Part shown: one piece after another, positions 8,871 through 54,487 of the stretch
Layout of the letters: each line of letters starts with the position of its first letter
Position numbering within the stretch: position 1 is the stretch's first letter
Source: a virus
Strand: one strand, 5' to 3'
Virus record (IMG/VR): IMGVR_UViG_3300031525_000001
Location: 62,001 to 126,000 of that record
DNA: 64,000 nt
Notes under the pieces: model-generated
Told to the model about the DNA's origin: nothing
Database searches by the model: none
What the model saw: the letters and a program-made list of their open reading frames with translations, nothing else
Made by a program: the position numbers and the translations under genes

Positions 8871-11800
8871 ATGGCACTGTTCACATCCTACGCACCACCG
8901 GGCGTCTACACTCAAGTAGTTCTGCAAACCAACGCGGCTCCTACGCTGGGGACTGCCCGTATTCCCGTGATTATCGGTGAAGGTCAACAGTTTTTCAGCA
9001 ACAACAACGTTGAGTTGTTCCGTGGTTCCTCCTCAGTTCAGGATGACCAGTCGGTCAGCGAGAACATTTCGAACCAAGTCACAGGGTTGACCCGCACATT
9101 CCAGACCAGCTTTTTCCCGGTCACGGACGGTACTGGCAAGGGCGTGATTTCGAACAACCCCGCCGACGTTCAGGTTGAGTCGATTGACCAGAACGGTAAC
9201 ATCGTTCCCGTAACAGTGATTTCACTGAACGGCGCAACGGGTACGTTCACAACGCAACTCATCATCCCCACGGGCTACGAAATCCTCATCACTTACTTCT
9301 TCAAGCGCGGTGACACGTTCATCGGCATCGGTGGTGTGGCTCCGTACAATGTCCCAGAAAATCTTCTGCCACAGATTCCGAGCACGGCAACTCTGACTGT
9401 GCTTGACGGCGGCGGCTCGCCTCCGGGAAACCAGACGGTTGTGTTGGGTCTCTCGACCCCCGGCCAGACAGGTAACCTCGTTACCCTCCAGTTCGTTTCC
9501 AGCCCCTCGCCTGTCCCAGACGCTCAGGCGGTTGGTGGTGCAGGCACCGATGCCATCACGATCAACATCAATGGACCGAGCGGCACCCGTACCCTTGCCA
9601 GTCTCGTCAGCCTCGTCAACGCAGGTATTCCGACGCTCGACGGCGGCTACCTGACGGTCACAACGACCACGGGCAACCTCACTGCTCCGCTGACGGTGAG
9701 CGCAGGTGCAACGCCATTCACGGGCGGCGTTGGCGGCAACAGCAACACAGTATTCAAAACCGCCCACACCCCCATCGTAGATGGGACCAACGGCGGCGTG
9801 GTCACGACCGACGTAACCAAGGTCATCGTTCAGGTGAACGGCAACAACGTCGCAGTCGCATCCTTGAATGGTGCGGCGGGGACCTTCACGCTGGCTTCGC
9901 CCGTCTCCGCGCCAGTCGCGTTGGGCGGAACTACCACGTCCTTCACGATCCAATATTACTTCAACTCGTGGCAGAACACGTATGATCTGCTTCCCGGTCA
10001 GAACATTTCCTCCATCACTCAGGTCGGTCTCGGCCCGAATCGTGCGGACTTTGTTCAGGGGACGGACTACGTTCTCGGCAGCATCCTTGCTCCCGATGGC
10101 TCCACAGTCCAGACCATCAACTGGGGTGCCTCGGTATCCTCGGCTATCGGTCAATCCGCCGCTGGCGAATCCGCGAACTTCACCGCCGCTGAGATCACCA
10201 CCGCACTGAGGGACGATCAAGTTTATCTCCGTCCGCTCGCGGGCGCTGTAAACGGCAAGAACACGGTCTTCACCCTCCCCGATGTACCAGTGGATGGTAG
10301 CGGACTCAGCGTCACGACCGACAATCCTGCGTTGGTTCAGGTTTACGTCGGCTCCGATCCGCTGGAAGCTTTCCTTGCGGGCGCTGTACGTGTGGCTACT
10401 CTCTCTGGTGCAAACCAGCTTGTGACCCTGTACAATCCCCCAGCGTCGGGCAGCAACGTGTACGCTTCGTACTACCGCAGCCAGTTGGCTGACCATCAGT
10501 ATAGCGTCACGGTTGTCAACCCGGGATACGCGGGCAACGGTACGTTCATCATCACCGATGAGCTTGACCGCGTTGCTCCGCTTGTGGAATTTAACCTAGC
10601 CGCCAGCACTGTTGCTCAGAATGGGCCGTTCCAAGACACGGGCGTGGTTTACCCGAACGACTTCTCCGATGCACAGGCTCAGGCAGGTGCAGCGGTTGAT
10701 GAAACAGTTACCCTGACCTTCAAGAACGACGGCAACGCGACTATCGTTCCCGCTGTTCAAGCAAGTCTGGCACTGTCGTTCGGTCCCGGCACGCTGACGT
10801 TCCATGCGACCACCCCGGGTATCGGCGGCAACCTCGTCCAAATCGTGATTGACGCTACGGACCTGAATGCCGACCCAGTATCGATCAATGGTGACATCGT
10901 TACCATCTACTCAAGCTGGGCTGGCACGCCCCTGTCCCTCGCCGCGATTGCAGCTTTGTTCCCATCGGGCGAAACGATTGATGGTGGGCAGATTCTTTGC
11001 ACCGCGTCTGGTACGACCTCAGGCAACGCCGCAATCACGGGCGCTACGAATTTGTCTGGCGGCACCAACGCAATCACCTCCCCCGTCACGCACAGCTATA
11101 CGGTCTCTTCGCCCAACTCGAAGGGTTCGGGCTCGCTGAACAACATCGGCTACCTCGACCAGACCTATGAGGACCTTGCAACTGGGTTCCGTGTGACGGT
11201 TGTCAATCCCACCGACCACGCAGGTTACGGTGTGCCGAACATTCCATCAGCTTACAACTTCGAACCCGGCGACAAACTCATCTTCAACGTGTACGCTGAC
11301 GCAACAGGCGCAAACGCTGCCGTCCGCAACGCTGGTACACCCGGCATTGCCCCAGCACAGGCGAACAACCTGATCGCAATTCAGGGTCTCGACACCACGG
11401 TCATCTCGAACTTCGGTTCGACCGCTGGCGACTCCGTGATTATCAGCACGTTCAACAAGAGCGGCAACGACCCGAGCATCGGTGAGTTCTACTACGTCTC
11501 GTACACGACCGCGAAGACTGCGGCTGATTACGCGATTCATCTTTACACCGACCCAAAGGTTGCTTACGCCATCTACGGTACTCCGAACACGGTCAACCGC
11601 GTCTCTCTCGGCATCCAGTTGATGGCCGCGAACGGCGTGCAGACCTTCGGCGTCATCCAAGTCCCAGTGGTTCCCGGCACCAATCAGGGAACTTCGCAGG
11701 ACTTCATGAACGCAATCCAGACGCTCACCATGAACCTCCCGGGCACCAACCAGAAAGCAAACATCATCTGCCCGCTGAGCACTGACCCGACTGTTCACCA

Positions 11801-12536
11801 GTTCTTGAGCCGTCAGTTGACCACCATGGCGAACATTCGCTACAAGGGCGAGGCAATCGGCTTCGTCGGCTACGATCAGTTCCAGACGCCAAGCACGATG
11901 CGTGCAAACGCTCGCGGTCTGTTGAATCAGCGTATGATCGCAATCGGTGCCCCAGTCGCAGGTATCCTCATCACCGACCCGAACACGGGTGTGGCGGTGG
12001 AATACGCGGTAAGTGGCGAATTCATGGCAGCCGCCATGATGGGCTTGAACGCAAACCCATCGAACGATGTGGCACAGTCCCTCACGTTCCAGAACTTGGT
12101 CGGCTTCAGCCGCTTGCTCGTGGTTTACGACGACCCAACGCTGGACGCGATGGCGTCAGATGGCTTGACGGACCTGTTGAACAACAACGGTGCCCTGCTC
12201 ATCCGTCACTACAAGACCACTGACCCGTCGAACCCGCTCACCAGCGAGCCGACAGTCACCACGATCTCGGACTACGTTTCGCAGGTGTTCCGTTCCGACC
12301 TCAACCAGTTCATCGGTCGCAAGCTGCTCGACTCGCTTGTTACCGACATTCAGGTGGTCTGCAACGCCCGCCTGTCGTCCTTGGTTAACCAGCAGATCAT
12401 CAGCGGTTACCAGAACTTGTCGGTTGTGCAAGACCCGACCGATCCGACACAGGCCGACGTTACCGTCACCTTCAAGCCGATGTTCTGTCTCTTGTATGTG
12501 TCGGTCACGTTCATTGTTCAAACCCAACTATCATAA
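8871..12536 (+). CDS. Tail sheath protein, enlarged
   Basis: A 1221-residue protein. The N-terminus, LFTSYAPPGVYTQVV, is typical of contractile tail sheaths. The last 250 residues carry the sheath C-terminal pattern: a NARGLLNQRMIAIGAP segment, the NNNGALLIRHYK region and a final part ending in VTVTFKPM. The protein polymerises around the tail tube and contracts on infection. Ordinary sheaths are roughly 400-700 residues; the excess lies in residues about 75-860. Three related beta modules there, near residues 76-146, 292-372 and 463-540, each begin with P(V/I)xDGxG and end in YYF or YYR. They probably decorate the tail exterior. Confidence 0.88.
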   Translation: MALFTSYAPPGVYTQVVLQTNAAPTLGTARIPVIIGEGQQFFSNNNVELFRGSSSVQDDQSVSENISNQVTGLTRTFQTSFFPVTDGTGKGVISNNPADVQVESIDQNGNIVPVTVISLNGATGTFTTQLIIPTGYEILITYFFKRGDTFIGIGGVAPYNVPENLLPQIPSTATLTVLDGGGSPPGNQTVVLGLSTPGQTGNLVTLQFVSSPSPVPDAQAVGGAGTDAITININGPSGTRTLASLVSLVNAGIPTLDGGYLTVTTTTGNLTAPLTVSAGATPFTGGVGGNSNTVFKTAHTPIVDGTNGGVVTTDVTKVIVQVNGNNVAVASLNGAAGTFTLASPVSAPVALGGTTTSFTIQYYFNSWQNTYDLLPGQNISSITQVGLGPNRADFVQGTDYVLGSILAPDGSTVQTINWGASVSSAIGQSAAGESANFTAAEITTALRDDQVYLRPLAGAVNGKNTVFTLPDVPVDGSGLSVTTDNPALVQVYVGSDPLEAFLAGAVRVATLSGANQLVTLYNPPASGSNVYASYYRSQLADHQYSVTVVNPGYAGNGTFIITDELDRVAPLVEFNLAASTVAQNGPFQDTGVVYPNDFSDAQAQAGAAVDETVTLTFKNDGNATIVPAVQASLALSFGPGTLTFHATTPGIGGNLVQIVIDATDLNADPVSINGDIVTIYSSWAGTPLSLAAIAALFPSGETIDGGQILCTASGTTSGNAAITGATNLSGGTNAITSPVTHSYTVSSPNSKGSGSLNNIGYLDQTYEDLATGFRVTVVNPTDHAGYGVPNIPSAYNFEPGDKLIFNVYADATGANAAVRNAGTPGIAPAQANNLIAIQGLDTTVISNFGSTAGDSVIISTFNKSGNDPSIGEFYYVSYTTAKTAADYAIHLYTDPKVAYAIYGTPNTVNRVSLGIQLMAANGVQTFGVIQVPVVPGTNQGTSQDFMNAIQTLTMNLPGTNQKANIICPLSTDPTVHQFLSRQLTTMANIRYKGEAIGFVGYDQFQTPSTMRANARGLLNQRMIAIGAPVAGILITDPNTGVAVEYAVSGEFMAAAMMGLNANPSNDVAQSLTFQNLVGFSRLLVVYDDPTLDAMASDGLTDLLNNNGALLIRHYKTTDPSNPLTSEPTVTTISDYVSQVFRSDLNQFIGRKLLDSLVTDIQVVCNARLSSLVNQQIISGYQNLSVVQDPTDPTQADVTVTFKPMFCLLYVSVTFIVQTQLS

Positions 12537-15185: not shown

Positions 15186-15851
15186 ATGTCCGAAGGTGGA
15201 TACGTATATCGGCAGGGTACATCACCCAACACTGAGACTGTAATCTCGTCTCGGTTCAAAATCTTTACGGATGCCGTTGATGTCGGCAAGTTCGTAAAGC
15301 TGGGCGTAACCTCGTCCTTCACATACTCAGAATCGAAGACTGTCGATGCGGTTCGCGGCCTCGGCTACGGCGATCAGGTCGCGGAACTCGTTCCCGGCGT
15401 GACTCAGCCGCTCAGCATCTCAATCACTCGTACCTGTCTGTATCTGGCGAACCTCATGCAGGTCGTCGGCTACAAGGCGGGCGTGAGCGGTGCTGTCCGC
15501 TCCCTCAAGCATCACCGCTGGCCGTTCGATATCAAGCAGGAGATTGTATTCTCCCAGCTTGCAACTGAAGACCCGAACGTCGGGCAGGCAACTCTGGCTG
15601 ACATTCCAAACGAAGGTGGTTTGAACAACACTGGCAACCCCGGCTTGCTTGCCGTGGCGACAGTGTATGAAGGTTGCTGGATGGAGTCTTACAACACGGC
15701 GTTCACGGTTGACACCGCCGCCGTCACTGAAGATTGCACCGTTACCGTCACCGACATTTTCGATGTCGCTGGCTCTGTCTACGGCGAGTTCCTTGACGCA
15801 GGTCTCAACAAGGGCGATGCCACGGGACGTTCACTCCTCTACAGCACCTAA
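15186..15851 (+). CDS. Putative tail tube protein
   Basis: A 221-residue beta-rich protein with a strong AAGGTGGGAGG ribosome binding site. Its placement shortly after the sheath gene is the normal gene order of contractile tails. The central part (KLGVTSSFTYSESKTVDAVRG, then VPGVTQPLSISITRT) has the alternating strand pattern of gp19-like tube proteins, which form the inner tube for DNA passage. No enzymatic motif. The leader region upstream contains potential RNA structure. Tube versus another abundant virion protein cannot be separated by eye. Confidence 0.6.
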   Translation: MSEGGYVYRQGTSPNTETVISSRFKIFTDAVDVGKFVKLGVTSSFTYSESKTVDAVRGLGYGDQVAELVPGVTQPLSISITRTCLYLANLMQVVGYKAGVSGAVRSLKHHRWPFDIKQEIVFSQLATEDPNVGQATLADIPNEGGLNNTGNPGLLAVATVYEGCWMESYNTAFTVDTAAVTEDCTVTVTDIFDVAGSVYGEFLDAGLNKGDATGRSLLYST

Positions 15852-15891
15852 CGAATTCTGGAGAACGGTCTGGACTTTTCTCCAAAAGCTG

Positions 15892-15900
15892 AGTATTATG
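15892..15900 (+). promoter_or_regulatory. AGTATTATG promoter-like motif before the tRNA
   Basis: AGTATTATG followed by AATAAG lies 26 bases before the tRNA and matches the AGTATTAAG motif found before several isolated genes here, including the extended form at 21464-21480. Confidence 0.35.
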
Positions 15901-15925
15901 AATAAGACGGACAAGGCGTATCTGC

Positions 15926-16013
15926 GGAAAGCAGTGCTATTGCGGTTAATAGATGCGCCTTGGGAAGGTGTAGCAGGGTAACCTGCCCGGTTCAACCCCG
16001 GTGCTTTCCGCCA
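15926..16013 (+). tRNA. Allo-tRNA-like (SelC-like 8/4) tRNA, anticodon GGG
   Basis: An 88-base gene folds as a long-variable-arm tRNA with encoded CCA. Acceptor stem 15926-15933 with 16002-16009 (eight pairs); discriminator G at 16010; CCA 16011-16013. D stem 15937-15942 with 15947-15952 and a four-base loop CGGT, as in bacterial tRNA-Sec. Anticodon stem 15955-15959 with 15967-15971 (two G-U pairs); loop TTGGGAA, anticodon GGG at 15962-15964. Variable arm 15973-15977 with 15982-15986. T stem only four pairs, 15987-15990 with 15998-16001, loop TTCAACC. The 8/4 layout, G73 and variable arm are marks of allo-tRNAs charged by SerRS, but GGG reads proline codons CCC/CCU. Charging is not determined. 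Confidence 0.75.
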
Positions 16014-16086
16014 ATCTGTTTTCCCAAGGGCTTGTCTGTCCACAATCTTCCCAAGGCGTGTCTTCAAAGTTTGAAGGCATTAGAAG

Positions 16087-16112
16087 GGGCGACTCGAAAG
16101 AGTCGCCCTTTT
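16087..16112 (+). terminator. Rho-independent terminator after the tRNA
   Basis: A nine-pair stem (GGGCGACTC with GAGTCGCCC) with a GAAA tetraloop, followed by TTTT and further T-rich sequence. It closes the tRNA transcription unit before the next endonuclease gene. Confidence 0.8.
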
Positions 16113-16146: not shown

Positions 16147-16602
16147 ATGAACCGCAAAATAACGAGCACGAAAAAGTGGTGTAACGGTTGTAAAAAGTGG
16201 AAATTGCACAAGAGGTTTAACAGATGCGGCGATCCTCGTCGAAATGGCTTTGCCGTCTACTGCAAGGAATGCATTAACAAAAGGAATCGAACGAACTACG
16301 CTAAAGAAAGCTCGCCCAAGTATCGAGCTACTCGCCGAAAATGGCGACAAGAAAACGCACTTCGTTTGAGAGTCGAACAATACGGATTGACTCCAGAGCA
16401 ATACAAGGAGATGTGGGATGCTCAAGACGGGAAGTGCTACCTACCGTCTTGTAATAATTCGGCGTCCTGTATTGACCACGATCACGAGACGGGGCAAGTG
16501 CGTGGCCTATTGTGTAGGACGTGTAATTTGGCTTTAGGACACTTTAGAGACAGTCTACAACTTCTCAAAGAAGCGGTTGTATACTTGGAGCAGTTTTCAT
16601 GA
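16147..16602 (+). CDS. HNH (endonuclease VII-family) homing endonuclease
   Basis: A 151-residue protein with an N-terminal CNGCKKWK...CKECINK zinc segment, a basic linker and the endonuclease VII core: CYLPSCN, CIDHDHETGQVRGLLC, CNLALGHF, then a terminal helix ending YLEQF. Catalytic DHDH is intact. It lies between the tRNA terminator and a structural gene, whose ATG overlaps its stop by four bases. Confidence 0.85.
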   Translation: MNRKITSTKKWCNGCKKWKLHKRFNRCGDPRRNGFAVYCKECINKRNRTNYAKESSPKYRATRRKWRQENALRLRVEQYGLTPEQYKEMWDAQDGKCYLPSCNNSASCIDHDHETGQVRGLLCRTCNLALGHFRDSLQLLKEAVVYLEQFS

Positions 16603-18254
16603 ACCCTCTTTTTCGAAAGAAAGCTCTCGACCCTTGGTTTGAACAAATCAACGAGCCCGATTACGCTGAGCATCAGCACCACTCTGACCCCGGTTACTCT
16701 ACCCAAAACGGCAAGGATTACGCGGGTCGCGGCTCCACTGAGAATGAGGGTGGTGCGCTTCAAGACGGTATTCCCGCCGATCTCCTGTCCATCGAACTCG
16801 GTAAAACTGGCAAGACCGCCGACAACGACGACGACTTCTATCGCGAGTTAGAGCAAGAGGGACAGCAAGACAGGGAACTGCACGAAGAGACTCAGCCCGC
16901 TGAATATGATGAGGCGTTAAACCGCGCTCTGACAGCCCTCGACGTGCTCGCTAAGATTCCTTCGAGCCAAGACATTCAGGGCTGCGCCCAGATGACCGCC
17001 GCCGACTTACGCCAGTTCGCCGAAGAGTACAAGAATGGCAAAGCGCGTCGATTCTCAAGTGACGAGGACAACCCGCACGTCACCTCGATGCCCAGTGCTC
17101 CAGCCCCAGTCGATCCCAGTGATGCAACATTCTTCAAGGAGAGTGATCCCATGTCCGATCAATTTTCGCCTACCGAAGAGAAGATCAATGCCGTTGCCGC
17201 AGGTAGTGGGTTCCGCTATGGGGGACACGTTACGGACGGAACTACGTTGTGGTTCAGGGGGAACAGTGAGCGGCTTTCGTTTAATCCCAAGACTGGGAAC
17301 GTTTCGTACCTGAGGAACGGGAAAGTTGAATCGGAGTGCCCCGTTGACCAACTCAAGCATATCGCGTCTGCCGAAGATTTTCATAGAGCTTTGAAGAAGC
17401 AACTCGGTCAGGATAAGACGGGCGCTATTCGTCCGTCTCCCCACGCTGTGTTCGAAAATAAAGTCGATAATGCTACTGGGAAACAGCCCGAAGCACCGCC
17501 AGAGCCTTCCGATGACGAAGTGATGCAGGCTCAGAAAACTCTCGAAAACGCGGGGGTTGGCGATCAGATTGGTGTCAACGCTGCGGAAGAAAGCGAAGCA
17601 ACTCTCCCCGATGATTGGCCGGAAGGCTGGCATTTGTACGACCCGAAGACTGGGGAAGAAATCAAGAAGAAATCCGCCCCGAAAGAGGCGGCTGTCACCA
17701 AGACCTATGGCACGGGCACGCCTCCGGGCGGCACCCCGAACGACCCAAGCGTGGACATCGAAGATGACGAAGATGATAAAACCGCAGCCGCAAAGACGGC
17801 ACTGGTTGGCATTCACGAGACGCCGAAGTTTCTCCCACCTCGTGACGATGTGCGTCGGCACCTCGATGAACAGGTGCAAGACGAGGTAATGGAAGGCGTG
17901 ATGGATGGCGTGAAAGATGACAAGACCGCCGCCTCGGACGATCAGGCAAACGAATTTTACTTGGACAAAGTTGACAGCATGAAAGCCGAAGCCAAGGATG
18001 CGTTCATGCTGGACGCCGCCATGCAGCAAGAGGCTCAGGATGCAGGTATGAGCATGGACGAACTGTGGGATGAGGTCGGTGGAGCTTTCACTGAGAACTA
18101 CTACATTTCGGCCTATTCCAAGCAGGGATCGATTGAAGTCTATGAGGGATTGAAGTGCCCTAACTGTAAGAGTACGAAGGGGAAACCCGTCGAGGACGGT
18201 ACAGACGGTGGGGTAAGCTTGCAGGAATGCCTTACCTGCGGGAGCTTTTACTAA
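16599..18254 (+). CDS. Acidic virion-like protein with C-terminal zinc ribbon
   Basis: A 551-residue, strongly acidic protein with long Glu/Asp/Lys-rich linkers. Two regions look folded: residues about 205-260 (FRYGGHVTDGTTLWFRG, with IASAEDFHRAL) and the C-terminus, where CPNCKS...CLTCGSFY forms a zinc ribbon. It contains repeated DDKTAA peptides that also occur in other large proteins here. It immediately precedes the prohead-protease-like gene, so an internal head or scaffold-type role is possible. No enzymatic motif seen. Confidence 0.45.
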   Translation: MNPLFRKKALDPWFEQINEPDYAEHQHHSDPGYSTQNGKDYAGRGSTENEGGALQDGIPADLLSIELGKTGKTADNDDDFYRELEQEGQQDRELHEETQPAEYDEALNRALTALDVLAKIPSSQDIQGCAQMTAADLRQFAEEYKNGKARRFSSDEDNPHVTSMPSAPAPVDPSDATFFKESDPMSDQFSPTEEKINAVAAGSGFRYGGHVTDGTTLWFRGNSERLSFNPKTGNVSYLRNGKVESECPVDQLKHIASAEDFHRALKKQLGQDKTGAIRPSPHAVFENKVDNATGKQPEAPPEPSDDEVMQAQKTLENAGVGDQIGVNAAEESEATLPDDWPEGWHLYDPKTGEEIKKKSAPKEAAVTKTYGTGTPPGGTPNDPSVDIEDDEDDKTAAAKTALVGIHETPKFLPPRDDVRRHLDEQVQDEVMEGVMDGVKDDKTAASDDQANEFYLDKVDSMKAEAKDAFMLDAAMQQEAQDAGMSMDELWDEVGGAFTENYYISAYSKQGSIEVYEGLKCPNCKSTKGKPVEDGTDGGVSLQECLTCGSFY

Positions 18255-18280: not shown

Positions 18281-19183
18281 ATGCCCTTTACGAAGATAGC
18301 AAATGCCGCTTTGCAGGAACCAGTCATCGCCCCCGAGGACTGGATCAAGCTGCACGGAAAGCACGTGTTTGGGCAGAAGTCCGCCTCGGGTACAGCCGCC
18401 GCGCAAACCTTCCGCAAGTCCGCCGACACATCGAAATACCTGTTGTCGCACTGCACCATTATGGCGAGCGTTATGGTCGAGGCCGACCCCTACGATTACC
18501 TCATCAAGCCGGAATGCGCTCACCTCGTCAACAACAACGACGACGCATGGACGAATGAAGTTCTGAAGCTCAGCCACAGTAGTTTTGTTGGTGCCTTCAA
18601 CTTCGTAGAGCACTTCCAGAATTCCAAGTACGCGAAGGGGCACATCCTCGACGCCATCCTCCGCAAGATCAAGCTCAATGGTGACGGCTCCGTGTGGGTC
18701 TATTTCTGCGATATCCTTGTTGCCACGGACCTCGGACACGAGAAGCTCATCAATGACATTCGCAGCGAGAAGGTCAAGTACCTTTCAATGGGCTGCGTGA
18801 CGGACCTCGTTATTTGCAGCTATTGCGGTGCTCGCGTAACCGATCAAAACACCTACTGCAACCACCTGTCGTACCAGAAGGGCATGTTCCTTACGGACGA
18901 CGACGGCATTGCTCGCCGCGTGGCTGAGCTTTGCGGACACAAGACAATGGCTAACGGCGGCGTGAAGTTCGTGGAAGCGTCGTGGGTTGCTACCCCGGCT
19001 TTCCCGGGTGCCGCGAAGCGCAATACCGTGGCTGAAGAGTGGGTCGGACCACGCACCAAGTACACCAAGTCATCGACCGCTGGGAAGATAGCAAAAATTG
19101 CCAGTGGAAATGATGAATTCGAAACCCTTGATTTAGGTGATGCTTTAATGAACGCGGACCTGCACGGGAGACTAATACGCTAA
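18281..19183 (+). CDS. Putative prohead maturation protease
   Basis: A 300-residue protein. The ATG at 18281 with a TAGGAACT-like site is preferred over an earlier in-frame start at 18227. The core has a His in GAFNFVEHFQNS, then paired strands (VWVYFCDILVAT), then a Ser in KYLSMGC, the order of viral prohead serine proteases. Directly after that Ser sits a Cys-rich element, CSYCGARV...YCNHLSYQ, a likely zinc finger. Placement just before a scaffold-like gene and upstream of the capsid gene fits a head protease. The catalytic assignment is inference from motif order. Confidence 0.5.
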   Translation: MPFTKIANAALQEPVIAPEDWIKLHGKHVFGQKSASGTAAAQTFRKSADTSKYLLSHCTIMASVMVEADPYDYLIKPECAHLVNNNDDAWTNEVLKLSHSSFVGAFNFVEHFQNSKYAKGHILDAILRKIKLNGDGSVWVYFCDILVATDLGHEKLINDIRSEKVKYLSMGCVTDLVICSYCGARVTDQNTYCNHLSYQKGMFLTDDDGIARRVAELCGHKTMANGGVKFVEASWVATPAFPGAAKRNTVAEEWVGPRTKYTKSSTAGKIAKIASGNDEFETLDLGDALMNADLHGRLIR

Positions 19184-21381
19184 TGGCAAACCAAACGAAA
19201 TCGAAGCTCGCAGCCGCAAAAGCGGCACTCAGCCGCAAACAGGCGGATTTAGACGCTATTGACGACCAGATCATGGGTCTGGACTCCGGTATCCCCTCCG
19301 ATCTTCCCGCGACCCCCGAATTTGACCTCCTCACCGCGAAGCGCGAAGAGCTTGAAGAAGAGATTCGCACGATGCGCGAAGGCGTTCAGTTTATCTCCGA
19401 ATGGGAGAAACTGAAGGGCGGACAGTGGTCGGAAGGCATTCGGTCCCAGTTGGACGGCCTCGACTCAGAAATCGCCAATATCGCTGGCGGCGATGCCGTC
19501 GAGCCGGGTATGGGCGTAGGTCCAGATATGGGAGCCCCGTTGGGCGATCCCCTAGCTCCACCCCCTGCTCCCGACGCTTTAGCAGCACCAGCGGGCGACG
19601 TGGCTCCAGAAGCCGCCCCAGCCCCAGATGCGGCACTAGACGCACCAGCAGCCCCACCAGAAGCACCTGCACCTGCCTTGGAACCTCCTATGGCGAGCGC
19701 AAAATCCGCAGTAAACAAGAAAAATAACTATCAAACCTCTCAAAAGAGGGGCAATTCTGCCTCTCCCGAGATGAAAAAGGAAGGCTCAACCATGGCAACT
19801 CCTACAGCTACCAAGCCCTCGAACTTGAAAGAGAAGCTTGCAGAACTGAAAACGAAGCGCGAGACGATCAAGAGGGAAGCACAGGTTCGCACCGCTGCGG
19901 CGTATACAATCGCCAATACGATGCTTCCGGGTGCCCCCGTCGAAAAGCGTCAGGCATTCGCCTCTTCGCTGCTCCAAGGTAACGACACCAAAGCTCTCGT
20001 TGCTGCCCTCCGTCAAACCGCGATCAACGCCCACTACTCCAAGGTCGCCGAACAATTCAAAGAAGTCCACAAAGTCGAACTCAATGATCTCCTTGAGGAC
20101 CCGTCCGTTCTGAAGTCCGAGCGTTCGGCTGTCGAAAAGGAAATCAAGGGTGACGCGAAGTCGGCTACCTCGAAGAAGGCCGATGACCGCAAGGACGCTG
20201 GTCCGCAGACCGATACGTACAACGACGGTCGTGGATGCGGCGGCGGCACTCACTCCGAGCCGAAGGAAATGGACGCAGCTAAGGCTGCCGAACGTCCCGA
20301 CGCTGGTGAGAAGCCGGGTCAGACCGTGAACCTCAGCGACGGCAAGTCCGCATCCGCGAAGAACGCGAAGTGCAAGGACGGCGAGAAGTGTGCTGGCTGC
20401 GATAGCTGCAAGTCCGCTTCCGACAAGAAGGCTGCTGAGAAGAAGTGCGACAAGTGCAAAGGCGAATGCAAGTGCGCCTCTGCCAAAGCCGTTGCTGCCA
20501 AGGCAAAGAAGGCCGATGAGCCGCCAATGGATGCGCCGATTGACGCACCCGCAGGCGATGCCCCACCGATGGATATGGCCGCTCCCGCAGGCGATGCAGG
20601 GCTGGACGCTCCTCCGATGGATGCAGAAGCTCCCGCTGACGAAGCAGGCGCAATTCTGACCGACGAGAAGAAGATGGTCGTTCAGGAAAAGATCGAGGAA
20701 GTCAACGAGGCTGTCAAGGCCCTTGAGCAGGAAATCCTTGAAGAGAACGAAGAGGAAGTTCCTCTCGCTCTTGAAGAGGGTGAGCCTTCCGAGGAAGAGC
20801 TTGACCTTTCGTCTGTGTTCGATCAGGACGAGATGGAAGACAAAGCCGCGTCACTTGCCAACGAAGGCGACGAGCATCAGGCAGCCGATGACGGCGACAG
20901 CTTCTTCGCCCCAACATCTGCCGCAGGCATGGAATCTGTGCTTGACGACAGCGGTATGCAGGTAGCCAGTATCGAGAGCTATTTCGATATGCAGGGCTCT
21001 GACGCCGATCCACTTTACAGCCTCATTGCTTCCGAAGAGAAGGTTGCAATGAACGTTGAAGGCTTTGACGTTCTGGAATCGTTTACTGGCGAAGTTGCCA
21101 ACAAGCTGAAGCAGAACGAGGCCGGTGCGGAAGACCGCGACAACGAGTCTGACCACGACGAGGACCTCTTCGTGGAAGCAATGAAGGATATCAAGCCTGA
21201 AGAGCAGGGCGCAAAGCGCACTCCTCAGGATGCGGTTCCTCAGTTGCAGTCTCCGAAGTCCGCAGCCGCAAAAACCGCAGCCAAGGCAGACCCGAAGGGC
21301 AGCATCAAGCGTGTCCGCCCGGTCGTAGCCTCACCGAAGCCCGTTGACATCGCCACTGCGCTGTTCGGCGACGACGAGTAA
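19183..21381 (+). CDS. Scaffold/core-like protein, possibly two fused reading frames
   Basis: A 732-residue protein. Residues 1-100 are a coiled-coil region, 100-175 an Ala/Pro linker. At residue 204 (ATG at 19792) a strong AAAAAGGAAGG ribosome binding site lies in frame. The second part has helices (NLKEKLAELKTKRETIKRE), a Cys-rich patch (CAGCDSCKS, CDKCKGECKC), acidic linkers and a final helical part ending in ALFGDDE. Coiled coils plus acidity next to the protease suggest a capsid scaffold. The AT-rich, hairpin-containing DNA before 19792 looks like a former intergenic gap, so two products may be made. Confidence 0.5.
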   Translation: MANQTKSKLAAAKAALSRKQADLDAIDDQIMGLDSGIPSDLPATPEFDLLTAKREELEEEIRTMREGVQFISEWEKLKGGQWSEGIRSQLDGLDSEIANIAGGDAVEPGMGVGPDMGAPLGDPLAPPPAPDALAAPAGDVAPEAAPAPDAALDAPAAPPEAPAPALEPPMASAKSAVNKKNNYQTSQKRGNSASPEMKKEGSTMATPTATKPSNLKEKLAELKTKRETIKREAQVRTAAAYTIANTMLPGAPVEKRQAFASSLLQGNDTKALVAALRQTAINAHYSKVAEQFKEVHKVELNDLLEDPSVLKSERSAVEKEIKGDAKSATSKKADDRKDAGPQTDTYNDGRGCGGGTHSEPKEMDAAKAAERPDAGEKPGQTVNLSDGKSASAKNAKCKDGEKCAGCDSCKSASDKKAAEKKCDKCKGECKCASAKAVAAKAKKADEPPMDAPIDAPAGDAPPMDMAAPAGDAGLDAPPMDAEAPADEAGAILTDEKKMVVQEKIEEVNEAVKALEQEILEENEEEVPLALEEGEPSEEELDLSSVFDQDEMEDKAASLANEGDEHQAADDGDSFFAPTSAAGMESVLDDSGMQVASIESYFDMQGSDADPLYSLIASEEKVAMNVEGFDVLESFTGEVANKLKQNEAGAEDRDNESDHDEDLFVEAMKDIKPEEQGAKRTPQDAVPQLQSPKSAAAKTAAKADPKGSIKRVRPVVASPKPVDIATALFGDDE

Positions 21382-29808: not shown

Positions 29809-31653
29809 ATGAGCATCCACTTCGGCCCCAAAATTCCGCAGTTATTCGTTAGCGCAGCCCTCGGTGACGGCTATTACACCGCAGGCGAAGCGTTGCTGCG
29901 CGGGCTTCAGGCACTCGTTGAGTCGAACGTTATCAGCGTCGGGTTGAACACACCGCCCGTGTCCCCCGCCAACGGAGACTCCTACATCATTGGAAGCAGT
30001 CCTACGGGTGTGTGGTCGGCTCAAGCTAACAATCTCGCCTACTGGTCAACCGACAATCCAGCGGTTCCAAGCGGTGAATGGGAATACTACACACCGAAAA
30101 ATGGTTGGGCTGTGGGCAGCGGAAACGCGCTTTACATTTTTAATAACGGAGCTTGGGCTACTACGACTTTGGCTTCGTTGTCCGATGTGTCCCTTCCCTC
30201 AGGCCCTTCGTCTCCCGTCACCACGCAATTAGCTACGGCAGCAACTTACGCCGTACTGGGAACCACGGTCACGAACTCGGATGGTGCGGGCACGGTCATC
30301 AGCGGTGGAAATGTCGGAGGCACAACCATCACCGCAGGCACCCCGCCATGGACTTTGACACCGCCTACGACAGTTATCTCGCCTGTCGCATCTCAAGCCT
30401 TGACGGACCTCAACACGGCAATCACTCATTACGAAGGTTTGACCTTCATCCAGACACTCACTACAGCAGACATGGGCACCCAGCATTCAGCGGGTGCTCC
30501 GACTGGCACCTACTATGCGGGCAATTATAAGAGTGGATCGAGCCTTGCAATCAGCACACCAATCATTCTTGATGCACAGGGCAGTCCGAACGCTGTGTTC
30601 GTATTCTACGCGACCGCTTCGACAATCACTCAGGCTATTGCTGGAACGATCACACTAGCCAATGGTGCTCAAGCTGCTAACGTAGTTTGGGTCGTTGGAA
30701 GCTCATGGACAACGATTGGTCCGGGTGCTGTTACTGTGGGTAACATTCTCGCTGTCTCGTCGATTACATTGGGCGGTGGGTCGTTGGCAGGCCGGGCACT
30801 AGCCAACGCCGCCGTTACCATGAATACTGCTACCACCATCACCGCCCCACCATCAGGAATACCGACTGGGGCTGTCCTTACTTTCAACGGAACTGAATTC
30901 GTTGCTACGGTTCCGAGTTCAGGTTTTGCAAACCCCATGACCACCGTTGGGGATATGATCTACGAGGGCTTGACTGGTTCCCCAGCCGTGCTCGGCCCCG
31001 AGCGACTACCAATCGGTACTTCTGGTCAAGTATTGACGGTGGTTGCAGGTGTACCCGCGTGGGAAACGGCGGCAGGTGGTGGGTCAAAGTTCCAGACAGC
31101 AGGACTGGGTTGGTTTCTTGGCGGTCAGGACTATAGCACAGTTGGGACTAGCGGAAGCATTCACACTAACAATGTCGTGAATGTAATCCAAGTCATTCTC
31201 GAAGTTGAGTTTGTCATATCCCACGTCACGGCTACCACGGTCACAGGTTCGGGTGCTGGCGGTTGGATGACGTGTGCTCTCTACTCAGCGGATGGAAATA
31301 CGAAACTGATTGACGCGGGAGCAAATTTTCTCGACACGTCAAATCACAGCCAATGGACTAAACAGGTTGCGGTTGGGCCTGTCACTCTCCCTTCGGGAAT
31401 TTACTGGTTCGCGTGGGGGAGTTACGATGCCTCAAACGGCGGTTCCGTGTTCAGCCATCAGGATTCCTCTTCGATGGCGAACCTCCTGAATCAATGGTCG
31501 TTTCCGTACTCGTCTCCAGTCCCACCCGTCCGATTTGGTTCAGCCGCAAATGCAATCACAGGCGGTGGGGTTATGCCCACCACTCTGGGCACGATTACGC
31601 CATTCTCGTTCGGGGGAGAGCCAGTCGTGCCTGTTGTAATGTTTAGCGTTTAA
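29809..31653 (+). CDS. Tail-fibre-like protein with DUF2793 and ice-binding-like DUF3494 domains
   Basis: A 614-residue protein. Residues 1-120 match the DUF2793 phage-tail domain (LLRGLQALVESNVIS, then SPANGDSYIIG, then WEYYTPKNGWAV). Residues about 140-350 match DUF3494, the ice-binding-like beta-solenoid: FSG-type strands, ILDAQGSPNAVFVFYA, LANGAQAANVVWVVGSS, SITLGGGSLAGRALA. The C-terminal 240 residues form another beta-rich domain. Ice-binding proteins of this fold are secreted adhesins or antifreeze proteins; here it likely acts as an adhesin module on the virion. It precedes a GIY-YIG gene. Confidence 0.8.
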   Translation: MSIHFGPKIPQLFVSAALGDGYYTAGEALLRGLQALVESNVISVGLNTPPVSPANGDSYIIGSSPTGVWSAQANNLAYWSTDNPAVPSGEWEYYTPKNGWAVGSGNALYIFNNGAWATTTLASLSDVSLPSGPSSPVTTQLATAATYAVLGTTVTNSDGAGTVISGGNVGGTTITAGTPPWTLTPPTTVISPVASQALTDLNTAITHYEGLTFIQTLTTADMGTQHSAGAPTGTYYAGNYKSGSSLAISTPIILDAQGSPNAVFVFYATASTITQAIAGTITLANGAQAANVVWVVGSSWTTIGPGAVTVGNILAVSSITLGGGSLAGRALANAAVTMNTATTITAPPSGIPTGAVLTFNGTEFVATVPSSGFANPMTTVGDMIYEGLTGSPAVLGPERLPIGTSGQVLTVVAGVPAWETAAGGGSKFQTAGLGWFLGGQDYSTVGTSGSIHTNNVVNVIQVILEVEFVISHVTATTVTGSGAGGWMTCALYSADGNTKLIDAGANFLDTSNHSQWTKQVAVGPVTLPSGIYWFAWGSYDASNGGSVFSHQDSSSMANLLNQWSFPYSSPVPPVRFGSAANAITGGGVMPTTLGTITPFSFGGEPVVPVVMFSV

Positions 31654-42886: not shown

Positions 42887-45361
42887 TTAGCTGTGTTGCA
42901 AGGCGACCACAGCTACGAGAGTCTCGTAACCGAGTGGGTTGGCGAAGCCGATTACCTCGCCAGTGCCGACTGGCGGGGAACCTGCGACTGGGCTGCCCCC
43001 AATTTCGTAGGTGACCAAGTAGTGAGCTTCAGAGCCCACCAGCTTGCCGTTGGAGATGATGTTCATTCCTGCGGCACCCGTAGCGTTTGCCGTGTTGATG
43101 GCCTCGGCTGCGGCGATGGTGACCGATCCGTTGCGAGCCAGCGCACGTCCATTGAGGGTTCCACCGTCCAGCGTGATCGACGTGTAAGCGATAATCGTAC
43201 CGACCATCGTGTTGTTGTCGCCCACCTGCGTGAAGGAACTACCCACGATCCAGATAACGTTGCCAGCTTGGGCACCGTTAGCCAAGAGGACGGATGCACC
43301 GCTCTCAAGTGTGGTCGTTGAACCAGCGATGAACACGAAGGTCGCATTCGGGTTACCCTGTGCATCCAGCGTGATGCTCGTTGGGATGTCCATCGAGGAA
43401 CCAGCAGAGTAGACGCCAGCGGAATAGCGGCTTGCGCCCAAGTTGCCCAGAGTCGAAAGGTTGGCCGACGATGCGCTGAGTACCGTTGCAGGCAGTCCAG
43501 CGAAGTAGTTGTACGCGGACGTTGCAGCGACCTGAGCCGCAGGAGCGTCAGCGTTGTCCACTGTCCACACAGCAACACCCGGCACGATGGTCGTGGTCGG
43601 GGATGAGCCAACTACGCCGCCCGTGACCACGGTCACACCAGTATTGGTGATGCCGCTGCCAGCGAGGATCGAGTAGCTTCCAGCCGATCCCAGTTGCCCG
43701 CTGGTATTGATTGCCGAGCCTTCACCAGCGCCCAAGCCGTTCGCGCTCTTCTGAAGACCGACCGCGATGATTAGATCATTGGCCTGCGTTGTTTGGAAAG
43801 CTGGTGCAACCGCAGGGTTAGCGGATGATAGGCCGACTGAAACCCCATCCAACGATACGCCCGTCATGTTCGTCCAGTCAATGACTTGGAAGTTGATGCC
43901 GCCATCGAATACTGGCTTACCAGCCGCCAGATCAAGTGGAGCCGTCACACCGTCCTGATAGACGGAATTGAGGTTCACGGCGTAAGTGCCTGCGTTTGCG
44001 GAGTAGCAAGCCCAGATGTAGAGACTCGGGTAGTAACCGTCGAGGCTCCAGTCTGCGGCAGGCCACGAGGAGTTAGGAGCGGGAGGAATTGAGTATCCGC
44101 TGTAATCCGCGTCCGCGAGGTTGATGTGTGCCAAAAGCACCCAGTTGTTGACGATAGCGGTGCCCGTGCCAGCGGTTGTCGTGATAGCTGTTGCCGACGC
44201 GATAGTGACCGCCCCGTCGCCCCCACCTACGGCAAGAGCACGCCCGTTGAGGGTGCCGCCGCCAAGGGTGATGGATGTATAGGCGAGGATGACGCCGACC
44301 ATGTTCGATGAGATACCATTCCAAACAGAGGTGAAGGAGCTTCCGACGACCCAGACCACGTTCGCAGCTTGTGCGCCGTTTGCGAGGATGATAGATGCAC
44401 CGCTCTCAAGGGTGACAGTCGAAGCTGCGATGAACACAAACAAAGCGTTCGGGTTGCCCTGAGCATCGAGGGTGATCGAAGTCGGGATGTCCAAAGTACC
44501 GCCAGAGAAGACACCTGCGTGGTAGACGCCTACTCCACCACCACCATTGTTGGTGCTGAGGTTAGCGAGACCAGTCTGGGTGGGGGTTAATCCACTGTAA
44601 TAGGTGAATGCTGCATTGCCCGCAGTGCGTGCTGCACCCGCGCTGGCATTATCAATTGCTGCTGGAGGAACGAACGTGAAGCCCGCCTCAGGACCAGTTG
44701 TCGGGGCAGAACCGATGTTGCCGCCAGAGACTACGGATGCGCCCGTGTTCGTGATACCCGCATAGGCGAGGATGGCATACTCTGACGCCGAGCCCAACTC
44801 AGCGGTGACCGCATTGGGGCTATTGCCGCCGTTCGAGGTGTCCGAGATTGTCGGAGCCGTGGGCATGAAGTCGTTCAAGCCCTGAAGGTAGCCGAAACTC
44901 GGGGATGCGCCATGAAGCTGATCGAATGGATCGAGGCTCTTGAGGCCGAATGCGATGGCAATGAGGGTATCGCCAGCCTGCGGGCTCACGTAGACGTTAT
45001 CGCCTTGGTTGCTGGACTGGAGTTTCTCGACCTTGGAGGCGTACTGCGAAGGATTGCCGTACCCAACGGATATCTGAGCCTGCCCTGCGGCAACTACAGC
45101 GGTGCTGTAGCGGTTGTTGAGGGTAAGGGTGGTCGCGGAGGACTGCACGCACACGAATTCGCCGTTGTTATTGAGGGCGGCGAAGCCAGTGATGTTGAAA
45201 GCCTTGCCTGCGTAAGCGCCGTTCGGCTGCGATGCCGTGGCTGCCCCGCCAGTGATGGTTCCTGTGTAGACTGTGGTGCCAGTGGTCGCCCCGGGATAGG
45301 GGAGAACTGATGCGGCAACCTGAGTCAGTGTAAAAATTGGACCGATTGTTGGTACGCCCAT
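42887..45361 (-). CDS. Surface protein with two ice-binding-like DUF3494 domains
   Basis: An 824-residue protein. Residues about 30-110 form a phage-type beta-sandwich (NITGFAALNNNGEFVCV). Residues about 185-405 and 560-775 are two DUF3494 domains, each with ASEYAILAYAG-type starts, SITLDAQGNPNA, LANGAQA-NV-W-VGSSF and SITL-GGTLNGRALA. The linker between is beta-rich. DUF3494 proteins are ice-binding or adhesive solenoids; in a phage this is most likely an adhesin, fibre or spike component. Single-gene minus-strand unit with its own terminator. No signal peptide. Confidence 0.82.
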   Translation of the reverse strand: MGVPTIGPIFTLTQVAASVLPYPGATTGTTVYTGTITGGAATASQPNGAYAGKAFNITGFAALNNNGEFVCVQSSATTLTLNNRYSTAVVAAGQAQISVGYGNPSQYASKVEKLQSSNQGDNVYVSPQAGDTLIAIAFGLKSLDPFDQLHGASPSFGYLQGLNDFMPTAPTISDTSNGGNSPNAVTAELGSASEYAILAYAGITNTGASVVSGGNIGSAPTTGPEAGFTFVPPAAIDNASAGAARTAGNAAFTYYSGLTPTQTGLANLSTNNGGGGVGVYHAGVFSGGTLDIPTSITLDAQGNPNALFVFIAASTVTLESGASIILANGAQAANVVWVVGSSFTSVWNGISSNMVGVILAYTSITLGGGTLNGRALAVGGGDGAVTIASATAITTTAGTGTAIVNNWVLLAHINLADADYSGYSIPPAPNSSWPAADWSLDGYYPSLYIWACYSANAGTYAVNLNSVYQDGVTAPLDLAAGKPVFDGGINFQVIDWTNMTGVSLDGVSVGLSSANPAVAPAFQTTQANDLIIAVGLQKSANGLGAGEGSAINTSGQLGSAGSYSILAGSGITNTGVTVVTGGVVGSSPTTTIVPGVAVWTVDNADAPAAQVAATSAYNYFAGLPATVLSASSANLSTLGNLGASRYSAGVYSAGSSMDIPTSITLDAQGNPNATFVFIAGSTTTLESGASVLLANGAQAGNVIWIVGSSFTQVGDNNTMVGTIIAYTSITLDGGTLNGRALARNGSVTIAAAEAINTANATGAAGMNIISNGKLVGSEAHYLVTYEIGGSPVAGSPPVGTGEVIGFANPLGYETLVAVVALQHS

Positions 45362-47918: not shown

Positions 47919-48675
47919 TTTAATGGGAGGGTTGGGGAATCAGCTTTTCCAATACGCCTACAGTAGAGCACTCGCAGCGCAGGGTCGCGAGGTCTATCTC
48001 ACGAACATACAGGTTGTCAATGTTACGGACCACCGCATCTATTCTCTAGACGGTTTCAATACTATCGTCAAGCTCCACAACCCCCCGCCTATTGGGGCAG
48101 CGCCACTCTACGAGAGCGGACTACCCTTTGACGAGAGAATGCTTAACATCCCCGAACCTACCATCGTCTACGGCTATTTTCAAACAGAAAAGTATTTCCT
48201 AAACATCGAAGACTCAATTCGTAAAGAATTGACCCTGAAATCCTCGCTGAGTGAAAAGGCTCAAGCAATTGCCAAGGAGATTCAAAGCTGTGAAAGCATC
48301 TCCCTCCATGTACGCCGAGGCGACTATCTGCAATTGCTCGCATTTCATGGAATGGTGGAACCAACGTATTACACGGCAGCCATTGGTACAATCTCACAAA
48401 AGGTTTCCAACCCCAAGGTCTTCATCTTTTCCGATGACCCGAAATGGTGTGAGGATAACCTGACTGGGACGGTCATTGAAACGGGAAGCAAGTTTGAAGA
48501 CCTCCACTTGATGTCCCTCTGTCGTCACAACGTGATCGTGAACAGTTCTTTCAGTTGGTGGGGTGCGTGGCTGAATCCGAACCCAGATAAAATCGTCGTG
48601 GCACCTAAACGATGGTTTTCTGCAAAGGATTTAGACAGTCGAGACATCATACCTGACGGGTGGATTAAAATATGA
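47905..48675 (+). CDS. Alpha-1,2-fucosyltransferase (GT11)
   Basis: A 256-residue protein with all GT11 marks: [11 protein letters not shown] (residues 8-18), HVRRGDY (135-141), IFSDDPKWC (174-182) and [11 protein letters not shown] (213-223). GT11 enzymes move L-fucose from GDP-fucose in alpha-1,2 linkage, as in O-antigens. Followed within the operon by GDP-mannose dehydratase, which makes the precursor of GDP-fucose. Cytoplasmic; length normal for the family or slightly short. Confidence 0.88.
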
Positions 48676-49670
48676 AGGCTCTAATTACAGGAATAACGGG
48701 GCAGGATGGTTCATACTTGGCGGAACTTCTGCTGGAGAAGGGCTACGAAGTCCACGGTGTCATTCGTCGATCAAGCAGTTTCAACACTGGACGAATTGAC
48801 CACATTTTTGATCGTCTCCACCTCCACTACTGCGATTTGACTGACGGTAGTGCCCTGAGTCGGTTGGTGGGGGAAATTCAACCCGATGAGGTGTACAACT
48901 TGGGAGCACAGAGCCATGTGCGCGTTAGCTTCGACATCCCCGAGTACACTGCCGATGTAGATGCTTTGGGGACGCTACGGCTTCTCGAAGCAATCAAGGC
49001 ACAGTGCCCTACGGCCAAATTTTATCAAGCATCGTCCAGTGAATTGTTCGGAAAGGTGCTGGAAGTGCCGCAGACTGAAAAGACCCCATTCTATCCTCGG
49101 AGTCCTTACGGTATTGCCAAGCAGTTTGCATTTTGGACGACCGTGAACTATCGTGAAATGGGCATGTTTGCCTGCAACGGCATCCTGTTCAACCATGAGT
49201 CTCCTCGGCGTGGCGAAACCTTCGTATCGCGCAAGATTACCAAAGCAGCGACGAGGATCAAGGTGGGACTCCAAAAGGAACTCTTGCTGGGAAACCTTGA
49301 CGCTAAACGTGACTGGGGATATGCTAAAGATTACGTGGAAGCCATGTGGCTCATGCTACAGCAACCCACCCCCGAGGATTTCGTTATTGCCACGGGAGAA
49401 ACACACACGGTGCGGGAGTTTCTGGATGAGACATTTGAATATCTGGGACTGGACTGGAACAAGTACGTGGGGATCGATCCGAAATACTATCGCCCCACAG
49501 AAGTAGATATCCTACTCGGGGATGCATCCAAGGCAAAAAGGATGCTGGGTTGGGAACCCCAGTGGAAGTTTCGAAATTTAGTCCGCATGATGGTTGACGC
49601 GGACATGGCGGACGCTCGCAGAGAATGTGGGCCTAATGGTGGAAATCCTTACGAATGGGACTGGCAATGA
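48672..49670 (+). CDS. gmd: GDP-mannose 4,6-dehydratase
   Basis: A 332-residue SDR enzyme: [10 protein letters not shown] cofactor motif (residues 7-16), [12 protein letters not shown], the SSSELFG catalytic Ser/Glu region near 121-127, [10 protein letters not shown] with Tyr146 and Lys150, NHESPRRGE and [14 protein letters not shown]. These are diagnostic for Gmd, which converts GDP-D-mannose to GDP-4-keto-6-deoxy-D-mannose using NADP. That product feeds fucose, rhamnose, perosamine and colitose pathways. Overlaps neighbours in ATGA on both sides. Confidence 0.93.
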
Positions 49671-50680
49671 CAACGACTCAAATGCTTAACCTCTTAATTC
49701 ATGATGCTGAAGAAGCTCTAAGCGTGGTTGATTATAAACCACTCGATGGCGCTCGTGTTTTTATTTCGGGGGCTACGGGGTTAATCGGTATGCACCTCCT
49801 GACGATTCTCTATGTCCTCAAACGGGAGGGGTACAAGATTGAGGGTTTCGGACAGTACCACAGCGAACCCGCGCCGTACACCAAAGAGCTTGCGACCCTT
49901 GCTGGGTTCGATCTTTATCACGATTCAATGAAGGTGCCTCAAACAGATGTTATCATCCACTCAGCGGGGTACGGTCAACCCATGATTTTCATGGCTAACC
50001 CCGCAGCGACCATTCTTGTAAACACAGCCGTTACAGAACGGCTGTTGGAATCCCTCAACTCGGGGGGTCGTTTCCTTTTTGTGAGTTCCAATGAAGTTTA
50101 CCACGGTCTACACAAGGAGTTCGCTACGGAAGAAGACATTGGAACCACCACCCCCTACCATCCACGAGCGGGCTACATTGAGGGAAAGCGGAGCGGCGAA
50201 GCAATTACTCACTCCTACCGTAAGAACGGTGTTAACGCGGCGTCTGCCCGCCTCAACCTGACCTATGGCCTCGGCGCTCGTAAGGGTGACAAACGAGCCC
50301 TAAGCGGATTTATCGATCAAGCAGTAACAGCCAATCACATCGAGATGAAATTTTCAGGTAAAGAGATGCGGACATGCTGCTACGCTAAAGACGTTGCGAC
50401 GATGTTGTGGAGGGTTATCCTTCACGGCACAAAACCCGTTTACAACGTTGGCGAGCGTTCCACAACCAGTATCGCCGAATTAGCAACCATCGTTGCTCGG
50501 CTTACAGGGTCAACGATTCAAATTCCAGAGGAGGATAAGGAACTGCCCGGTTCTCACGCCCTGCCTCGGATGGACATCTCTCTAATGGAGGCTGACTTAG
50601 GAAAGACCGAGTACACCACTCTGGAAGAGGGTCTGAAGAGAACAATCGCGTGGCATAGGGGGCTACATGAATCACTTTAA
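49667..50680 (+). CDS. NAD(P)-dependent SDR epimerase/dehydratase
   Basis: A 337-residue extended SDR protein. GATGLIG at residues 35-41 binds the cofactor; catalytic Ser140/141 ([10 protein letters not shown]) and Tyr170-Lys174 (GYIEGK) are present, then RLNLTYGLG. The 30-residue extension before the Rossmann fold is unusual. Sitting after Gmd and before an RmlC-like and a DegT-like gene, it probably reduces or epimerises the 4-keto sugar. Exact substrate unknown; a UXS/GDP-sugar reductase role is possible. Confidence 0.75.
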
Positions 50681-51215
50681 GGTAGAAGACGAGAAGTTTG
50701 GCGGGCGTGTGAAGTTGATATCCTCAACCTGTTTTGAGGATAGTCGCGGCTTTTTTAACATCACTTACCTCGATGACGAGATGAAAGAAATGGGTCTCCC
50801 GCCGTTTGTCCGCGATCTCCACTCCCGCTCCATGAAGGACGTAGTTCGAGGGCTGCACTTTCAGTCTACACCACCCATGGCAAAGCTGATGCGTGTTCCA
50901 CGCGGTAGAGTTTTTATGGTGACGGTTGATGTTAACCCACAATCCCCCACGTTCCTACAATACTACAGCCTCATTATGGAGGAGGGGGACAAACTTCAGC
51001 TTTGGGGTGAGGCGGACATTGCTCGGGGTTTCTGTGCTTTAGAGGATTACTCCGAGGTGCAGTACAAGTGCTCGGGGCATTTCAATAAAGCATTCGATGA
51101 CGCAATCCTGTGGGATGATCCTGTTATCGGCATCGACTGGCCTGTAAAAGATCACCCCATCTTGTCGGATAGGGATCGACACGCCGTAACCGCGAAGGAG
51201 TTTTTCCACCTATGA
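50667..51215 (+). CDS. RmlC-like 3,5-epimerase
   Basis: A 182-residue cupin protein: VVRGLHFQ with His64 (catalytic base position), FMVTVDVNPQSPTF, IARGFCALEDYSEVQYKCSG and WDDPVIGIDWP. These are RmlC family marks for epimerisation of 4-keto-6-deoxy sugars. The conserved second Tyr of the YKCTxxY segment appears as Phe139 here, so it may be a one-site epimerase or a variant. Overlaps genes on both sides. Confidence 0.8.
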   Translation: MNHFKVEDEKFGGRVKLISSTCFEDSRGFFNITYLDDEMKEMGLPPFVRDLHSRSMKDVVRGLHFQSTPPMAKLMRVPRGRVFMVTVDVNPQSPTFLQYYSLIMEEGDKLQLWGEADIARGFCALEDYSEVQYKCSGHFNKAFDDAILWDDPVIGIDWPVKDHPILSDRDRHAVTAKEFFHL

Positions 51216-54486: not shown

Positions 54487-54487
54487 A

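Follow-up and report, generated by a model that had tools for sequence, protein, structure and literature searches.

A phage-borne allo-tRNA with anticodon GGG and its antisense partner: a candidate two-RNA module shared with the Acidobacteriaceae

What is a tRNA with a long variable arm, an eight-pair acceptor stem, and a proline anticodon doing in a phage genome, when allo-tRNAs have, to our knowledge, no explained natural role so far? The tRNA lies in a stretch of 64,000 nucleotides (hereafter, the window) corresponding to bases 62001-126000 of an IMG/VR record (IMGVR_UViG_3300031525_000001; 186 kb) from a soil phage, and positions given below are those of the window unless stated otherwise. 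It had been predicted, from the letters of the window, to be a phage-encoded allo-tRNA, and the first half of that description is supported by the 186-kb virus record and its genes for a tail sheath and a head protease.

The tRNA is 88 nt long, occupies 15926-16013 on the forward strand, and folds as a class II cloverleaf in the 8/4 layout. The acceptor stem (15926-15933/16002-16009) consists of eight Watson-Crick pairs and the T stem (15987-15990/15998-16001) of four, with a UUCAACC loop; the D stem (15937-15942/15947-15952) has six pairs, the innermost being G-U, and a CGGU loop; the anticodon stem (15955-15959/15967-15971) has five pairs, two of them G-U, plus U15954-A15972; and the variable arm (15973-15977/15982-15986) is 5 bp long with a GUAA loop. 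The anticodon loop UUGGGAA presents the anticodon GGG at 15962-15964, and the 3′ end carries G73 at 16010 and an encoded CCA at 16011-16013. Sequence and fold bear out the cloverleaf as originally drawn, down to its anticodon loop, G73, and CCA. The 8/4 layout was preferred over a 7/5 layout because under the latter the T stem would contain a C-U mismatch. ARAGORN called tRNA-Pro(ggg) at exactly 15926-16013. When the window was dinucleotide-shuffled 300 times (19 Mb), it made four calls, none of at least 84 nt, none ending in CCA, and none of class II, so that the shuffled sequence yielded nothing alike.

Neither the Rfam tRNA model (RF00005) nor its tRNA-Sec model (RF01852) matched the phage tRNA, a silence to be expected because the same search also missed bacterial allo-tRNAs (G279:C349 and G334:C107). 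Across 300 genomes from the family of one Acidobacteriaceae genome, a covariance model built on nothing but the phage tRNA returned one strong relative, an Acidobacteriaceae 8/4 allo-tRNA with anticodon GCG (E = 1.5e-8), and a model of these two tRNAs produced about 85 allo-tRNA-type matches in the Acidobacteriaceae, separated by a gap in score from tRNA-Ser, with almost none elsewhere in the phylum. When 50 bacterial allo-tRNAs were modeled with the phage tRNA left out, the phage tRNA scored 49.7 bits, whereas the highest-scoring of 25 tRNA-Sec came to 47.8, only 1.9 bits lower, and tRNA-Ser reached at most 38.2; in the reverse test, the phage-only model scored allo-tRNAs up to 54.5, tRNA-Ser up to 43.1, and tRNA-Sec up to 37.8, and its first six foreign matches, from 54.5 to 44.1, were allo-tRNAs. 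The cloverleaf of the allo-tRNA family shows strong covariation, with compensatory changes in all five helices. The phage tRNA shares with this family a 12-bp branch built as 8 + 4, a long variable arm, a long D stem with a short loop, a SerRS-type G73, and homology to the bacterial members. Judged by these sequence models, the phage tRNA is an allo-tRNA, with tRNA-Sec a close second in one of the two directions of comparison. The predicted identity thus gains support from reciprocal tests; of the two kinds of model that had been proposed as its check, those for allo-tRNA grouped the phage tRNA with allo-tRNAs, and the SelC model (RF01852) stayed silent. A tRNA-Sec identity was rejected given the 12-bp rather than 13-bp acceptor/T branch, the anticodon GGG rather than UCA, and the missing match to RF01852. 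Escherichia coli tRNA-Pro is recognized by A73 and G72 (C1-G72), and a tRNA-Pro identity, with a class I body, A73, and C1-G72, was rejected for a molecule with a long variable arm, G73, and G1-C72.

The long variable arm, G73, G1-C72, G2-C71, and A3-U70 are the grounds for expecting SerRS as the charging enzyme, and by these identity elements the phage tRNA should be charged with serine by the host. Signals of the E. coli type comprise A73 and G72 for ProRS, A73 for LeuRS and TyrRS, and G3-U70 for AlaRS, none of which the elements of the phage tRNA would fit; alanine charging in particular is unlikely since G3-U70 is absent. The 12-bp acceptor/T branch is compatible with EF-Tu. An anticodon GGG reads CCC and CCU, codons used at 16.8 and 8.7 per thousand, respectively, and the identity elements imply that serine would be inserted there. 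In orthologs from relatives that lack the tRNA, proline stands at 88% of CCC and 85% of CCU codons, and serine is no commoner at CCC/CCU (19 of 824) than at CCA/CCG (16 of 939; p = 0.40). Full reassignment of CCC and CCU was therefore rejected, which upholds the argument against it in the original prediction, and the two codons still mean proline in phage proteins. When expressed in E. coli, allo-tRNAs from one acidobacterium insert serine efficiently and some irregular allo-tRNAs (Mukai 2017) are inactive, as described in a review of allo-tRNA work (PMC7609411).

The tRNA itself was correctly placed by the original prediction, which missed a conserved antisense partner beyond position 16013. 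This antisense element, ATCTTCCCAAGGCGTGTCT (16045-16063, forward strand), is complementary over 19 nt to the anticodon arm at 15951-15969, with 12 contiguous Watson-Crick pairs at 16047-16058, and was equaled by none of 1000 shuffles. A shorter second complement of the anticodon loop, TTCCCAAGG, can be read at 16021-16029 (forward strand), and the leader holds an antisense copy, CAAGGCGTATCTG (15912-15924, forward strand), 13 nt of which are complementary, counting Watson-Crick and G-U pairs, to 15950-15962; this copy is a direct repeat of 16052-16063 (11/12), and none of 1000 shuffles of the 20-nt leader did as well. A promoter-like site, TGGACT-17-TATTAT, at 15871-15899 (forward strand), 26 nt upstream of the tRNA, agrees with the consensus at 9 of 12 positions and is a consensus match only. 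An intrinsic terminator with a 13-pair stem, a GAAA loop, and a T tail (16083-16112, forward strand) closes the RNA unit. No second promoter was recognized before the phage antisense, which may for that reason act only in cis or be driven by some other phage promoter.

The same layout was found across a set of 73 loci consisting of the phage locus and 72 from the Acidobacteriaceae (loci L237, L240-L269, and L299-L337, about 72 in all). Whatever the anticodon, 50 of the 73 loci had, no more than 100 nt downstream, a reverse complement of the anticodon arm of the tRNA at that locus, with a Watson-Crick run of at least 10, as against 0.5% of pairs in which a tRNA was matched with downstream sequence from a locus of different anticodon and 0 of 62 ordinary tRNAs; 64 of 73 qualified once G-U pairs were allowed. 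Duplex energies between tRNA and antisense were −49.4 kcal/mol for own pairs and −33.9 kcal/mol for swapped ones. Near-consensus sigma70 promoters ended just before the antisense in 45 of 64 modules versus 1.8% of shuffles, making this second promoter common among modules without being universal, and a terminator followed the antisense at 29 of the 34 loci with enough sequence versus 2.4% of shuffles. The order of the module is leader, allo-tRNA, second promoter, antisense, and terminator; the phage unit, in which the complement of the anticodon arm lies no farther than 100 nt downstream of the tRNA and is followed by a terminator, has the full bacterial layout except for a recognizable second promoter. 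Of the 398 Acidobacteriaceae genomes that were sampled, roughly 55 carried allo-tRNAs, frequently two or more apiece; an antisense of its own accompanied most of these tRNAs, and the dominant anticodons were GCG, GTC, GCC, ATC, and TTC. G73 is missing from 18 of the 72 bacterial copies and CCA is encoded in only 4, so that many may escape charging by SerRS. A search of 299 Pseudomonadota genomes, a set without a positive control, returned no allo-tRNAs at E ≤ 1e-7. The review (PMC7609411) makes no mention of an antisense partner, and within a literature coverage that was incomplete, the tRNA-antisense pair appears to be a two-RNA system without earlier description.

No conserved protein partner was found beside the bacterial modules, and because the protein neighbors are unrelated from locus to locus, the module seems to be made of RNA only. 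Those unrelated neighbors are also what a small mobile element would leave, one in which the inverted partial tRNA copy serves transposition at the DNA level, for instance by RAYT/Y1 transposases, rather than RNA regulation; a gene identified by eye as RAYT-like is found close to 3 of 30 bacterial loci, the modules are scattered and sometimes tandem (L248, L263), and a transposon-related overlap is described for one allo-tRNA in the review (PMC7609411). We nevertheless consider this explanation unlikely, as compensatory changes preserve all five cloverleaf helices and the antisense is preceded by a near-consensus promoter and closed by a terminator, features that argue for function as RNA.

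Fold predictions, made at equilibrium and ignoring tertiary structure and processing, gave the anticodon stem of the phage tRNA alone a probability of 0.997. With the trailer added, the stem was predicted to be lost to the antisense (0.88); with the leader added, 0.005 of it was left; and with leader and trailer together, the prediction was a mixture (own stem 0.41, antisense 0.31). When 160 nt of downstream sequence were included, the 5′ strand of the anticodon stem was predicted to pair with the downstream RNA in 34 of 34 modules and in 3 of 62 ordinary tRNAs.

We propose, with confidence evenly poised between belief and doubt, that the locus is a two-RNA module in which a serine-inserting tRNA is held off by its antisense, much as in a toxin-antitoxin pair. 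Host seryl-tRNA synthetase would charge the phage allo-tRNA with serine, and the antisense, partly copied in the leader, would pair with the anticodon arm and keep the tRNA from translation, leaving it active only once the antisense is removed, degraded, or outnumbered; a tRNA so freed would place serine at proline positions (CCC/CCU). The effector would thus be off by default, a logic that resembles RNA-RNA toxin-antitoxin pairs, and the comparison is drawn because a serine tRNA that would misread common codons precedes a dedicated antisense. The broader claim, that this is a new class of RNA-only toxin-antitoxin system or switch, widespread in the Acidobacteriaceae and captured by a phage, with a mis-specifying serine tRNA as effector and a co-evolving antisense sRNA to the anticodon arm as antidote, is one that we advance tentatively and would not yet back over its negation. 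Toxin-antitoxin or transposon roles for irregular allo-tRNAs have already been suspected, according to the review (PMC7609411).

The mutually exclusive folds predicted for leader, tRNA, and trailer would suit a regulatory switch of which the antisense is one part and which sets free, under certain conditions, a beneficial and nontoxic mistranslator acting in stress or host response, and the efficient serine insertion in E. coli noted above would serve such a role; we assign this only a small chance, as no trigger is known and the Arg, Asp, Gly, and Glu anticodons of other modules would cause damaging substitutions. It is quite improbable that the tRNA shields the phage from host anticodon nucleases, whether as a decoy or as a substitute that resists cleavage: phage tRNAs do have such a role in mycobacteria (PMC10264068) and also, against retron effectors, in PMC11555353, and the unusual anticodon arm would fit, but the same module occurs on bacterial chromosomes with many anticodons, and the loop that a decoy must expose is just the one covered by the antisense. 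Very unlikely is a plain supply role, in which ProRS would recognize the tRNA by its anticodon and CCC/CCU would be decoded as proline, for, however well used and conserved as proline those codons are in a phage with at least 10 other tRNAs, the class II body, 8-bp acceptor stem, G73, and C72 are unlike E. coli ProRS signals, the covariance tests group the tRNA with allo-tRNAs, and the conserved antisense would be left unexplained.

How such a module might have come to reside in a phage can be approached through its insertion site. The relatives L014, L015, and L017 lack both the tRNA and the endonuclease VII gene that follows it (16147-16602, forward strand; 151 aa; PF02945, 7.6e-23; phrog_2633, 7.9e-34), and their flanking genes directly adjoin. 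These are a conserved 221-aa gene on the left border (15186-15851, forward strand; no family match), found beside the empty site in all three relatives, and a conserved 551-aa gene on the right border (16599-18254, forward strand; no family match). The tRNA and the endonuclease VII gene probably entered together or successively, and the presence of this neighbor suggests that the module moves as a cassette. Once there, the tRNA might serve the phage by upsetting its host or by shutting out competitors, or might do no more than maintain itself. Five other IMG/VR contigs carry the locus at 100% identity, so the phage lineage itself offers no covariation.

Phage Tunturi_5, whose host is Tunturiibacter psychrotolerans (PMC11924767), is the best match of the 1221-aa tail sheath (8871-12536; full length, 44%) and the one match of gp732 (19183-21381) among 50,697 phages. 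Because both genes match Tunturi_5, the host of the present phage is probably acidobacterial, T. psychrotolerans being a species that we take to be placed in the Acidobacteriaceae. The phage would then have acquired the module, probably, from acidobacterial hosts, in which it is scattered and bears many anticodons. No allo-tRNA was detected in Tunturi_3, Tunturi_4, or Tunturi_5; no other class II GGG tRNA was found in the viral scans or, among the matches listed, in genome contigs; the acidobacterial D-arm pattern was absent from the viral contigs; and distant blastn against phages gave no match. The 17-mer of the anticodon arm also occurs in three further contigs, which were set aside as unrelated sequence. 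The original prediction was aware of no phage example, and none emerged from the viral scans or from the literature searched, the coverage of which was incomplete; a phage-borne allo-tRNA is new as far as searched, allo-tRNAs themselves being known.

The phage has other unusual tRNAs and genes. A second tRNA-Gln(TTG) at G000:47503-47588 (L020:7503-7588) joins a Gln-like acceptor (U1-A72, G73) to a Leu-like body in which the variable arm is long, and is possibly a tRNA-Leu switched to glutamine. The 91-nt tRNA-Arg(ACG) called at G000:45230-45320 (L020:5230-5320) has, on our reading, a hairpin-bearing insertion of ~14-16 nt in its anticodon loop, for which ARAGORN draws a long variable arm. A tRNA-Thr(TGT) at G000:47257-47341 (L020:7257-7341) is, with its U73 and its long variable arm, unusual for a threonine tRNA; a tRNA with anticodon CTA at G000:136626-136700 (L022:10626-10700), named Pyl by ARAGORN, is a possible amber suppressor; a further tRNA at G000:44854-44932, unlisted by ARAGORN, was found by RF00005 (47.2 bits); and a permuted tmRNA with the tag ATAPKAMAAHA lies at G000:38585-38985 (L019:18585-18985). 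The window also encodes two proteins with ice-binding-like domains (PF11999) on opposite strands (29809-31653 and 42887-45361) and, at 48672-57876, nucleotide-sugar and glycosyltransferase genes, namely a GDP-mannose dehydratase, an epimerase, a DegT aminotransferase, and a glycosyltransferase.

An antisense that tracks the anticodon is a sequence-level clue that allo-tRNAs appear to be under specific control. The phage copy would make their function testable in infection and would offer a route for altering the meaning of host codons, and genetic code expansion with allo-tRNAs would gain a natural, sequence-programmable off-switch.

Among known systems, the 8/4 allo-tRNAs of Acidobacteria (Mukai et al. 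2017, as presented in the review PMC7609411) share with the phage tRNA its layout, 4-nt D loop, long variable arm, G73, and an anticodon unrelated to serine, and GCG and GUC are predominant anticodons both there and in our bacterial sample; the phage tRNA differs in its residence in a phage genome, in an anticodon GGG carried by 0 of 72 bacterial members, and in a median identity to them of 53%. Bacterial tRNA-Sec (SelC) resembles it in having an acceptor stem of 8 bp, a D stem of 6 bp capped by a 4-nt loop, a long variable arm, and G73, whereas the phage tRNA has a 12-bp rather than a 13-bp branch and a sense anticodon, and tRNA-Sec scores lower with the phage model. The tRNAs by which phages evade anticodon nucleases (PMC10264068, PMC11555353) are likewise phage-borne, with an altered anticodon loop in PMC10264068, but they replace host tRNAs and keep a normal identity, and the abstracts of both studies are without an antisense module. 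A parallel in logic is offered by CreTA (PMC8501985), also a pair of small RNAs of which the toxic one strikes translation through a tRNA or codon and the other controls it: CreT sequesters a host tRNA and CreA guides Cascade to the creT promoter, whereas in the phage module harm would come from the tRNA itself, and its partner is an antisense to its anticodon arm.
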